Shown in pieces: positions 12,762-40,310 of a DNA stretch of 56,239 nt. Source of the DNA: Candidatus Cloacimonadota bacterium (lineage in GTDB: Bacteria; Cloacimonadota; Cloacimonadia; Cloacimonadales; TCS61). The DNA lies in the NCBI GenBank assembly GCA_030600585.1, contig JAUVLU010000015.1, positions 1-56,239 of the forward strand, in the 5' to 3' direction. Position 1 is the stretch's first letter. Each line of letters begins with the position of its first letter. The position numbers were made by a program, and so were the translations under genes. The notes beneath the pieces are model-generated. The model was not told the DNA's origin and made no database searches. It was given only the letters and a program-made list of their open reading frames with translations.

Positions 12762-13532
12762 ATGTTTAGAAAGAAAGAAAAAAAGATAAAACGTAAAAAA
12801 AATATATTTCAGGATTATTTGGAAGCAATTCTTTTTGCCTTTGTTGTGGCAATGCTCATCCGCAATTACACGATCCAGAATTTTAAGATTCCATCATCTT
12901 CAATGGAAAAAACACTTCTCATCGGCGATTACCTTATCGGGAATAAACTGAAGTATTTTTTTACTGATCCCGAGCAGGGAGATATTGTAATATTCTATTA
13001 TCCTGCCGACCCTGAAGAACCACAACCGAGAGAAGATTTTGCAAAGATATTGGGTCCGATCTACTTCAATAAAACAAGCTGGCTGCCAAAATGGCATCAG
13101 AAGAAAAATGTGGTTAAGCGTGTTATTGGAATGCCCGGAGATGTTATTGAGGTTAAGAATAAATTAGTGTATGTAAATGGTGAAGAGTACAAATTCGGTG
13201 CTGAACAATATATAGATAACAGGAACATTCCGCGCAGTGAAGGCAGAATTTACTGGGACAACGAATTTATGGGCAGCCGCGATAATTTCGGACCTGTAAC
13301 AGTGCCGGAAAATGAATATTTTGTTATGGGTGATAATCGAGATGTAAGCGGTGACAGCCGTTATTGGGGATTTCTGCCGCGTGAAGATATTGCCGGAACT
13401 CCGGCAATTGTAACATTCTCGGTTGGAGAAAAACCAATTGAAACATACCGTGATTTTGTACTCAAGTATCAAAGACATCTAAAAGGAAGATCTTCCGTAA
13501 GATGGAAAAGAACACTCAAGCTGATCAAGTGA
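12762..13532 (+). CDS. lepB: Signal peptidase I
   Basis: 256 aa type I signal peptidase, which removes signal peptides from exported proteins at the outer face of the inner membrane. After a basic N-terminus, one membrane segment (AILFAFVVAMLI, ~22-33) leads into box B with the catalytic serine (PSSSM, Ser47). The general-base lysine is Lys119 in VVKRVIGMPGD. Box E is FVMGDNRDVSGDSRYWG. A ~35-residue insertion between boxes B and D is common in this family. The 3' end overlaps hemW by 31 nt, so the two are co-transcribed. A TTGACA at 12702-12707 may be the -35 element. Confidence 0.95.
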   Translation: MFRKKEKKIKRKKNIFQDYLEAILFAFVVAMLIRNYTIQNFKIPSSSMEKTLLIGDYLIGNKLKYFFTDPEQGDIVIFYYPADPEEPQPREDFAKILGPIYFNKTSWLPKWHQKKNVVKRVIGMPGDVIEVKNKLVYVNGEEYKFGAEQYIDNRNIPRSEGRIYWDNEFMGSRDNFGPVTVPENEYFVMGDNRDVSGDSRYWGFLPREDIAGTPAIVTFSVGEKPIETYRDFVLKYQRHLKGRSSVRWKRTLKLIK

Positions 13533-14689
13533 TCGGTTATGTTTATATTCATGTTCCTTTTTGTCTAAAGAAATGTAATTATTGTTCTTTTTTTTCTGTC
13601 GAATTTTCCAAGGAAGCAAGTTGCAGATTTGTTGAATATTTAATAAAAGAAATAAATTTATTCAAACAAAAATACTCTATAAAACCAAAAACAATTTACT
13701 TTGGCGGAGGCACACCTTCACTTCTCACAGCCGTGCAGATCAATTCGATAATTTCACAATTTGATATTTCAAAAGTGGAAGAGATCACACTCGAATGTAA
13801 TCCTGTAAACATTGATGATAAGTTTGTAGATGAGTTGAAATCAACACCGATTAATAGAATAAGTTTGGGAGCGCAATCGTTTTTGGATAGCGAACTGAAA
13901 ATTCTGGGGCGGCTTCATAATGCAGATAAAATTGGGAATGCTTACAAAATATTACGTGTTTATGGATATGAAAATATTTCCCTCGATCTAATCTACGGTT
14001 TGCCGAACCAAACCCAAGAAGATGTTGAATTTTCTCTAAATAAAATAATACAATTTGAGCCGGAACATATTTCTACTTATTGTTTAAGTTTGGAAAAGGA
14101 TGTTCCTTTGTTTTCCAGAATAGATCAGATTCCCGCTGATGAAACAGTTGCTGAGTTTTATTATCATATTCGCGCCAAATTGATCTCTGCCGGATTTGAG
14201 CATTATGAGATTTCCAATTTTGCAAAAAAGGGTTTTATTTCCAAACATAATCTGTGTTATTGGAATGATGAATATTATCTTGGTCTCGGACCATCGGCTG
14301 CCGGATATTTAAATAATTGTCATCCTAAGTGTCCCGATGAAATCGGGATGTATCGAAGGATAAATGATGAAGAAAATATAATATATCGTTACACAAATCC
14401 GGCAAATATAAAAGAATATTACAAAATGCTGGATGGAAATATGATCATGACAGATAAAACTATCTTAAACGAAAATGATCATGAGAAGGAATATATCTTT
14501 TTAGGATTGCGTAAAGCTGCCGGATTGGATTTGAAAGATTTTGAAACTAAATTTGAAACTGATTTTACAGAAAAATATGATCGTGTAATTAATAAATTCA
14601 ATAATTTACTTGAAATCAATGATAAAAAACTGAAACTGAAACCGGAAGCTTATTTTATTTCAAATGAGATATTTTCGGAGTTTATGTAG
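13502..14689 (+). CDS. hemW: Radical SAM heme chaperone HemW (coproporphyrinogen oxidase-like)
   Basis: 395 aa. The N-terminal IHVPFCLKKCNYCSFFS holds the CxxxCxxC motif for the 4Fe-4S cluster, followed by IYFGGGTPSLL and the radical SAM barrel (LECNPVNI, RISLGAQSF, LDLIYGLPNQT). The C-terminal HemW domain contains YEISNFAK and NLCYWNDEYYLGLGPSA. This branch lacks the extra N-terminal part of true HemN and is thought to deliver heme. Its start lies inside lepB. Its TAG stop is at the first bases of a REP element that precedes a RAYT transposase. Confidence 0.9.
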   Translation: MEKNTQADQVIGYVYIHVPFCLKKCNYCSFFSVEFSKEASCRFVEYLIKEINLFKQKYSIKPKTIYFGGGTPSLLTAVQINSIISQFDISKVEEITLECNPVNIDDKFVDELKSTPINRISLGAQSFLDSELKILGRLHNADKIGNAYKILRVYGYENISLDLIYGLPNQTQEDVEFSLNKIIQFEPEHISTYCLSLEKDVPLFSRIDQIPADETVAEFYYHIRAKLISAGFEHYEISNFAKKGFISKHNLCYWNDEYYLGLGPSAAGYLNNCHPKCPDEIGMYRRINDEENIIYRYTNPANIKEYYKMLDGNMIMTDKTILNENDHEKEYIFLGLRKAAGLDLKDFETKFETDFTEKYDRVINKFNNLLEINDKKLKLKPEAYFISNEIFSEFM

Positions 14690-14832
14690 AGCGATCGCCC
14701 CGATCGCTCAAACACGTTCAAGGTGAACGTGGCACAACCGGAAGTAAAACGATCGCCCCGATCGCTCAAACACGTTCAAGGTGAGAACGTGGCACAATTG
14801 ATGTAGAACGGTCACCTTGACCGTTAAATTAA
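14686..14832 (+). repeat. REP array upstream of the RAYT (two full units and a remnant)
   Basis: Units of ~58 bp. Each has GTAG or GTAA, then palindrome AGCGATCGCCCCGATCGCT, then palindrome CACGTTCAAGGTGAACGTG. Full units begin near 14686 and 14744; a degenerate single palindrome (ACGGTCACCTTGACCGT) begins near 14802. The first unit overlaps the hemW stop codon. Confidence 0.88.
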
Positions 14833-14867
14833 GTTTAATGTAAATCCGGCAAAAGGTTAAAATTATT

Positions 14868-15485
14868 ATGAAAGATAAAAACAATTTAAGCTACAAGGAA
14901 TTCCATCGCAGGAATTTACCTCACATTCAACCACAAGATGGTATTCTATTTGTCACATACTGTTTACACAACATTCTTCCACTATCAATTCGAAACAAAA
15001 TTAGGAATAATAGAAAAAATTTTGCTGATAATTTCCTGGTTTACGATGATTATCTCGATTTTTGCAAAGAAGGTTCAAAATTACTTTCTATCGATGAATT
15101 CGCTCAAATCGTTTATGATAATTTGCTTAAAATGAATCATATCCAATATGAGCTTTTCTGTTTCTGTATAATGCCAAATCATGTTCACGTATTGTTAAAA
15201 CCAAATTCAGATGCTGATGATAATCTGTTTTCAATTGCAAAAATAATGCATGGTCACAAGGGGATAACAGCCAAGAAGATTAACAAAGCTTTTAATCGAC
15301 AAGGTCATTTCTGGCATAGTGAATATTACGACCATTATATCCGAAATGATACTGAATTCTATAATATTGCTTGGTATATAATCAATAATCCAGTTAAGGC
15401 AAATCTGGTATCAGAAATAAAAAAATGGAAATATATCTGGATAGAAAAACAGTTAGATTATGAATTGGGATTGGATCTTTTGTAG
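14868..15485 (+). CDS. REP-associated tyrosine transposase (RAYT, Y1_Tnp/TnpA_REP family)
   Basis: 205 aa. The single-strand nuclease motif is MPNHVHVLLKP, the HUH-type metal-binding site of Y1 transposases. The late part, GHFWHSEYYDHYIRNDTEFY followed by IAWYIINNPVKANL, is diagnostic of the REP-associated branch and contains candidate catalytic tyrosines. RAYTs are domesticated relatives of IS200/IS605 transposases that act on REP hairpins carrying a GTAG-type tetranucleotide. The gene is flanked on both sides by such hairpins, and its stop codon overlaps the first downstream unit. It sits between hemW and a secreted-protein gene. The frame is intact, so it is probably functional. Confidence 0.93.
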   Translation: MKDKNNLSYKEFHRRNLPHIQPQDGILFVTYCLHNILPLSIRNKIRNNRKNFADNFLVYDDYLDFCKEGSKLLSIDEFAQIVYDNLLKMNHIQYELFCFCIMPNHVHVLLKPNSDADDNLFSIAKIMHGHKGITAKKINKAFNRQGHFWHSEYYDHYIRNDTEFYNIAWYIINNPVKANLVSEIKKWKYIWIEKQLDYELGLDLL

Positions 15486-15768
15486 AGCGATCGCCCCGAT
15501 CGTTCAAACACGTTCAAGAGTGAATGTGGCACAACTGGAAGTAGAGCGATCGCCTCGATCGTTCAAACACGTTCAAGGTGAACGTGGTACACCCGGAAGT
15601 AAAGCGATCACCTCGATCGTTCGAACCAGTTCAAGGTGAACGTGTCACAACCGGAAGTAAAGTGATCGCCCCGATCGTTAAAGCACGTTCAGGGTGAACG
15701 TGGTACACCCGGAAGTAAAGTGATCACCTCGATCGTTCAAACACGTTCAGGGTGAACGTGGTACAAAA
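15482..15768 (+). repeat. REP array downstream of the RAYT (five tandem units)
   Basis: Five units with a period of 58-59 bp begin near 15482, 15541, 15599, 15657 and 15715. Each carries a GATCGCCCCGATC-type and a CACGTTCAAGGTGAACGTG-type palindrome. The first two have GTAG at the foot; later ones have GTAA. Units differ by point changes, and several pairs are compensatory within the stem (for example GATCACCTCGATC). The array runs up to the ribosome-binding site of the next gene. Confidence 0.9.
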
Positions 15769-40169: not shown

Positions 40170-40289
40170 AATTTTGTCCTCCTTTATTTTCTCCTTATTA
40201 CAATGTATTTACTAAACAAAACCAAAATTGAAAAATAATTGGTAATGTGTCAAATAGAAAATGGTTTAAAGATTCAAAATCTGTAGTGA

Positions 40290-40310
40290 CAGATCACTGA
40301 TCTGTCTAAA
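40290..40310. repeat. GTAG-footed GATC palindrome
   Basis: GTAGT followed by GACAGATCACTGATCTGTC. It has the same GTAG plus GATC-hairpin design as the REP units near the RAYT, with a different stem. Confidence 0.6.

Follow-up and report, generated by a model that had tools for sequence, protein, structure and literature searches.

In a 56,239-nucleotide stretch of DNA from a Candidatus Cloacimonadota bacterium (contig JAUVLU010000015.1 of assembly GCA_030600585.1; hereafter the window), the gene hemW is followed by a transposase gene bracketed by palindromic repeats, and the stop codons of both genes lie within these repeats. The best explanation of the region as a whole, to which we give a probability of about 0.72, is that a REPtron with a repetitive extragenic palindrome (REP)-associated tyrosine transposase (RAYT) and its cognate REPs was inserted between hemW and the next gene. 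A preliminary description of this DNA had already proposed that the RAYT is bracketed by its own REP arrays, and both the match of the protein to NCBIfam NF047646 and the counts of the repeat stems bear this out.

Organization of the REP units

Between hemW and a conserved gene of 415 amino acids lie seven repeat units of 58-59 bp, one extra hairpin and a RAYT of 205 amino acids, which has the same orientation as hemW (Table 1). Two units and the single hairpin stand upstream of the RAYT and five units downstream, an arrangement that had been described before and for which the boundaries are now mapped. Each unit is a heterodimer of inverted REPs with different stems (A+ B-). Hairpin A, of the type GTAR followed by RCGATCG..CGATCGY, has its foot on the + strand, and hairpin B (CACGTTCA..TGAACGTG) has its own foot, read on the - strand. 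Most units had been said to have a GTAG or GTAA foot; in fact all seven A feet are of these forms, GTAG in units 1, 3 and 4 (3/7) and GTAA in units 2, 5, 6 and 7 (4/7). The B foot is GTAC or GTGC in most units of the window and GTAG in most copies on contig C44. DNA-folding z-scores of the four segments that were folded range from -3.4 to -5.8.

The hairpin at 14803-14825 was at first taken for the remnant of a unit. It is not a decayed unit, but an intact B-type REP in + orientation with its own GTAG foot; two compensatory pair changes distinguish its stem from the B stem. In all, eight REP elements flank the RAYT gene within 200 bp upstream and 300 bp downstream. The nearest of them on either side (B-type, + upstream; A, + downstream) have the same orientation, and inverted REP pairs occur inside each unit and between the outermost hairpins. 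The layout of Nunvar et al. 2010 (PMC2817692), in which single REPs in inverted orientation flank each rayt, was not found at the window RAYT.

The feet are in register with two gene ends, as the preliminary description had noticed. hemW ends ATG-TAG, and its stop (14687-14689) is the TAG of a GTAG foot; the RAYT ends TTG-TAG, and its stop (15483-15485) is the TAG of the GTAG foot that follows. Elsewhere in the window, further GTAG-footed hairpins at 40283-40306 (+; GACAGATCACTGATCTGTC) and 22219-22195 (-; GGGTAGATCACCGATCTACCC) are off stop codons.

Table 1. Features of the hemW-RAYT region, in window coordinates.
Feature	Position	Strand	Basis or use
hemW, radical SAM heme chaperone, upstream gene	13502..14689	+	TIGR00539, 256 bits; congener 3'-end comparison
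REP unit 1, GTAG foot; A hairpin 14689-14709, B hairpin 14713-14731	14686..14743	+	
REP unit 2, GTAA foot, 2-nt insertion in B loop	14744..14802	+	
Single B-type REP GTAGAACGGTCACCTTGACCGTT, GTAG foot, stem AACGGTCA/TGACCGTT	14803..14825	+	
RAYT / TnpA-REP, 205 aa	14868..15485	+	Pfam PF01797, NCBIfam NF047646
REP unit 3, GTAG foot = RAYT stop	15482..15540	+	
REP unit 4, GTAG foot	15541..15598	+	
REP unit 5, GTAA foot	15599..15656	+	
REP unit 6, GTAA foot	15657..15714	+	
REP unit 7, GTAA foot; ends at array boundary	15715..15764	+	
Downstream conserved gene, 415 aa	15778..17025	+	served with hemW to locate empty and solo sites

The downstream gene gave no match in Pfam or NCBIfam.

The RAYT and its family

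The RAYT scores 40.8 bits against Pfam Y1_Tnp (PF01797; cut-off 23) and passes narrowly, with 81.4 bits, the cut-off of 80 for NF047646 (REP-associated tyrosine transposase). Against the IS200 transposase family NF033573 it reaches 24.5 bits, below the cut-off of 55, and it was not assigned to IS200/IS605. The HUH motif is NHVH (residues 104-107) and the tyrosine motif YIINNP (Tyr170); both are invariant in five aligned relatives, the middle residue of H-x-H excepted. A search of solved structures with the single sequence gave no match, and it was only a profile of five such RAYTs that matched the E. coli TnpA-REP structure 4er8 (E 3.4e-8). The residues tested for GTAG recognition were, in E. 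coli numbering, W94, Q95, E100, H101 and R104. In the alignment to 4er8 the RAYT has W149, H150 (not Q), D155 (E to D), H156 and R159, so that four of the five positions are conserved or conservatively changed. The change of E to D is also found in RAYT subclasses 2.5 and 2.7 (PMC6006769).

No close relative of this RAYT was found in the genus: in the sole congener search none exceeded 46% identity, and the best match was a different RAYT in the congener G008. The genome of the window (G000) has three other REP-type RAYTs with different flanking repeats. Two of those repeat families were counted, and the C38 family occurs only beside its RAYT and the C47 family mostly near its own.

Dispersed copies of the unit

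Copies were counted in the 2.58 Mb genome G000 by pattern, with at most two mismatches. The A stem occurs at 22 sites on 11 contigs and the B stem at 17 sites, and a reversed-pattern control gave zero matches; absence from the rest of the genome, which the preliminary description had named as evidence against its reading, is therefore not what the count found. The A stem has one copy in G002, exactly where hemW ends, and no copy in eight other congeners; the B stem occurs twice in G002 (one copy at hemW) and once in G005 (at hemW). The A/B unit is multiplied only in the genome carrying this RAYT. Those dispersed copies that were inspected are intergenic, no inspected A copy sits on a stop codon, and the foot is GTAA in 15 of 15 A copies outside the window.

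Some of these copies have features of their own. At five sites in G000 (L001, L004, L191, L192 and L193, on C9, C25, C16, C53 and C60) a dispersed A copy has a long palindromic insert in the B loop (GTTTATAAGCCGTAGGCTTACAAGTCCGCCGG...), and several of them have the common left flank CACGGATAAAAGAAAAATAT. At C44:74139-74362 (L196) there is a four-unit A/B tandem array with a period of 58 bp, and no RAYT was found on contig C44. A different RAYT-like gene lies between an efflux-type gene and an RND-like gene at C60:34500-39000 (L200), flanked by long direct repeats that begin AACTTGAATTAAGTT directly after both stop codons.

The 3' end of hemW across the genus

The C-terminus of hemW is identical in every congener with a readable hemW end, and the stop is ATG-TAA or ATG-TAG. 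G001 and G003 have no hairpin at hemW and the same EFM-stop (ATG TAA). Because these two element-free genomes end with the same Met-stop, we conclude from the comparison that the insertion did not set the 3' end of hemW, and that the element neither lengthens nor shortens the gene. The preliminary description had suggested that insertion of a unit fixed the 3' ends of both hemW and the RAYT, and had held that a shared stop in element-free relatives would tell against this. Such a stop is what these relatives have, and the suggestion fails for hemW; for the RAYT it stands, in that the stop lies in a foot and this recurs at other RAYT loci.

Solo units occupy the orthologous site in several relatives. 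A single A/B unit lies at the hemW stop in G002 and, with its A hairpin damaged, in G005; in G008 at least the B end of such a unit can be seen. On the same stop, G006, G007 and G009 (L099, L100 and L104) have units of two hairpins whose stems are different (CACAGACA..TGTCTGTG). On both sides, the borders of the solo unit in G002 match the outer borders of the G000 array, the right border, with GTAC before the junction and AAAAAGG after it, being common to unit 7 and the solo unit. These solo units may be either remnants or precursors of a RAYT locus.

A second locus at ileS

A comparable series is found at the 3' end of ileS. Orthologous RAYTs (74% identity) are present there in G000 and G008, with a REP pair different from A/B; G004 and G007 have solo pairs, and G002, G009, G001 and G003 have nothing. 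In a FastTree phylogeny G008 lies outside the clade of G000, G004, G007, G002 and G009 (support 0.993). Since G008, with its ortholog, branches outside this group, the ileS RAYT was probably present in a common ancestor and then lost in G004 and G007, with solo units left behind. The hemW locus may share such a history of RAYT loss. In the ileS RAYTs themselves (L198 on C47 of G000; L054/L222 on C189 of G008) translation passes through the foot in another frame (GTA), and the C-terminus is therefore REP-encoded.

Register of feet with stop codons

We scanned 22 REP-type RAYT loci in G000 and its relatives for GTAR with a perfect hairpin no more than 60 nt from a stop. The nearest foot was exactly on the stop at 6 of 10 upstream genes and 5 of 12 RAYTs, or, when the shared ileS locus is counted once, at 10 of 21 gene ends. 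An even spread would give 1 in 121 per gene end; the binomial probability of about 5e-16 is to be read as strong, not exact, as the loci are related. A nif3-like gene (C38) is one further case of a foot on a stop and was left out of the count, its hairpin having one mismatch. Among control genes 1 of 86 had a foot on its stop, namely hemW of G009, and 0 of 85 when this gene is excluded. At the ends of L021/L022-type RAYT-like genes in the same genomes there were no GTAR-hairpin feet (0/35), so that the register does not extend to every Y1 transposase. Of 14 REP feet close to gene ends in 200 kb of E. coli K-12, one was on a stop, and this was the foot at yafL beside rayT. As dispersed copies here and E. 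coli REPs generally are off stops, the register of feet with stop codons goes with RAYT loci, and not with dispersed REPs, in these genomes or in the K-12 sample.

A broader rule, by which every REP would lie on a stop, was rejected (0 of the inspected dispersed A copies; 1/14 feet in E. coli). At a 2-HGDH-like gene in five genomes (L312, L313, L314, L315 and L317) a GTAA foot, with different stems, stands exactly one nt after the stop.

A possible mechanism and its alternatives

The RAYT would be a single-strand-DNA HUH nuclease of the TnpA-REP family, which most likely recognises and cuts the folded hairpins in single-stranded DNA and could in this way multiply the unit, locally into tandem arrays and genome-wide into scattered copies such as the 22 A sites. 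At hemW the left-edge foot would occupy the stop codon that the gene already had, and the length of hemW would for that reason be unchanged, while the foot 3' of the RAYT would supply the stop of the RAYT. Recombination between the flanking units, which are direct repeats, could remove the RAYT, and what would remain is a solo unit on the stop codon, the state seen at this place in congeners. We infer that the RAYT is active and makes the copies, and that its loss gave rise to the solo units.

Several points weigh against such a history. No movement of the element has been observed. The contig of G008 ends between hemW and the next gene, the congener genomes are 73-98% complete, and support for the deep branches in the genus tree is low (0.36-0.57). 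From the hemW locus alone, either the solo unit or the RAYT could be the earlier. The dispersed A copies are closer to the G002 unit (stem AACGATCG) than to the RAYT-adjacent units (AGCGATCG, AGTGATCG), and, given this resemblance, may derive from an earlier version of the element. In most dispersed copies, moreover, the B hairpin is altered and its loop is long.

We take the insertion to have occurred at the stop codon itself, and the origin of the GTAR has then to be considered. It is possible, if only as a tentative proposal, that the foot is carried by the element; insertions near a gene end would survive because the TAR of the foot gives an immediate stop, by which the 3' end is set or reset, as the preliminary description had supposed. 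Where ileS has an element it ends in ACG, GCG or ATG followed by TAA or TAG, and where it has none in AGT-TAA or AAT-TAG, or it is 3-7 amino acids longer; the nif3-like gene likewise ends TTG-TAG as against ATT-TGA. REP termini are known to provide stops often (PMC3733652). However, the stop position of hemW and yafL is the same without an element, and the proteins are not shortened relative to near orthologs, as random insertions in last codons should have made them.

Somewhat unlikely, in our estimation, is that the solo A/B unit at hemW is older and was kept as an RNA or terminator hairpin, and that the RAYT came only afterwards and made use of it. Six other congeners have at hemW either a unit of two hairpins or the B part of one, three of them with other stems, and the RAYT is without a close relative in the genus, both of which would fit this order of events. 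Against it, the orthologous ileS RAYTs of G000 and G008 make loss likelier than gain.

IS200/IS605 elements insert 3' of a fixed tetranucleotide. A comparable behaviour, in which the element inserts 3' of a pre-existing host GTAR and stop codons at gene ends are tolerated targets, seems to us unlikely as the source of the foot. The argument for it comes from ends that are the same with and without an element. hemW ends ATG-TAA in the element-free G001 and G003, no leftover stop codon stands beside the element at hemW, and protein length is unchanged relative to near element-free orthologs for hemW, ileS, the nif3-like gene, the 2-HGDH-like gene (G016) and yafL. In E. coli, yafL ends TTG-TAG with a REP and TTG-TAA at the same codon in the REP-free strain NZ_LR882057. 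Such cases suggest that RAYT elements settle on existing G-TAA or G-TAG stops. On the other hand, the near element-free relatives lack the G at ileS (AGT-TAA, AAT-TAG) and at the nif3-like gene (ATT-TGA, ATT-TAA), the foot at the 2-HGDH-like gene lies one nt beyond the stop in five genomes, and feet in the K-12 sample are mostly off stops. Furthermore, biochemical work treats GTAG as a guide that is part of the REP, the cuts being made at CT or CA nearby (PMC8266576). A strict rule of a GTAR target was not established, ileS and the nif3-like gene fitting it poorly.

A fuller form of the same idea, that RAYT elements integrate at host GTAA or GTAG, mostly the stop of an upstream co-directional gene, that the foot is target sequence of the host, as it is for IS200/IS605 elements, and that REPs with GTAA feet direct cutting to TT or TA, we regard as improbable. 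In one tested REPtron the dinucleotide that is cleaved depends on positions within the GTAG motif (PMC8266576), and by this rule a GTAA foot would be predicted to shift cutting to TT or TA.

Chance abutment of inverted repeats and stop codons is refuted: GTAR is short and stops preceded by G are common, but the reversed-pattern controls were zero, seven tandem units match one another, the z-scores reach -5.8 and 0 of 85 control genes had a foot on the stop.

Relation to known REP systems

Motifs alone would place the RAYT of the window near REPtron/RAYT subclass 2.4 of Quentin et al. 2018 (PMC6006769), which corresponds to RAYT group 4 of Bertels et al. 2017. It shares with this subclass NHVH, Trp followed by Q or H, the YIxNNP motif, a length of about 195-205 amino acids and foot-bearing REPs flanking the gene, as well as the presence of several RAYTs per genome, each with its own REP; the subclass is known from Bacteroidetes and scattered phyla. 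Unlike subclass 2.4, the foot here is often GTAA and not GT[AG]G. By definition a REP of the GT[AG]G class has this foot directly before the palindrome, and GTAA lies outside this (PMC6006769).

In E. coli K-12, rayT (b0228) with its bacterial interspersed mosaic elements (BIMEs) offers a close likeness, as the upstream co-directional yafL ends on a REP-foot TAG beside rayT, and the profile of five such RAYTs matches the E. coli structure 4er8. The stop of E. coli rayT itself (TAA) lies outside a foot, however, and its REP stems are long and bulged. In E. coli NZ_LR882057 (L335; K-12 is L333) the REP-free yafL allele is followed by hicAB, and the same codon is TAA as against TAG. The two inverted REPs per unit and the tandem clusters of units resemble BIMEs and REPINs (REP doublets forming hairpins; PMC3116915, PMC3733652), but the A and B stems are unrelated and the units are direct repeats on both sides of the RAYT. 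The GTAG REPs of Di Nocera et al. 2013 (PMC3733652) likewise supply the stop codons of flanking genes; GTAA feet fall outside the definition given there, and no empty-site comparison was found in that work.

RAYTs, REP pairs, tandem clusters and REP feet as stops have thus all been published (PMC2817692, PMC3733652, PMC3116915, PMC6006769). In the literature searched, we found no paper on REPs in Cloacimonadota. What is new here is the phylum, the two-stem direct-repeat layout, the GTAA feet, the series of solo, RAYT-bearing and empty sites, and the count of the register. A stop codon inside a REP does not prove that the REP created the stop, and caution is needed on this point. At hemW and at ileS, a single genus offers the same site with a RAYT, with a solo unit and empty. 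This series makes it possible to test which of the two, element or host, is the source of the foot, and whether a solo REP at the end of a gene is the scar of a lost RAYT.
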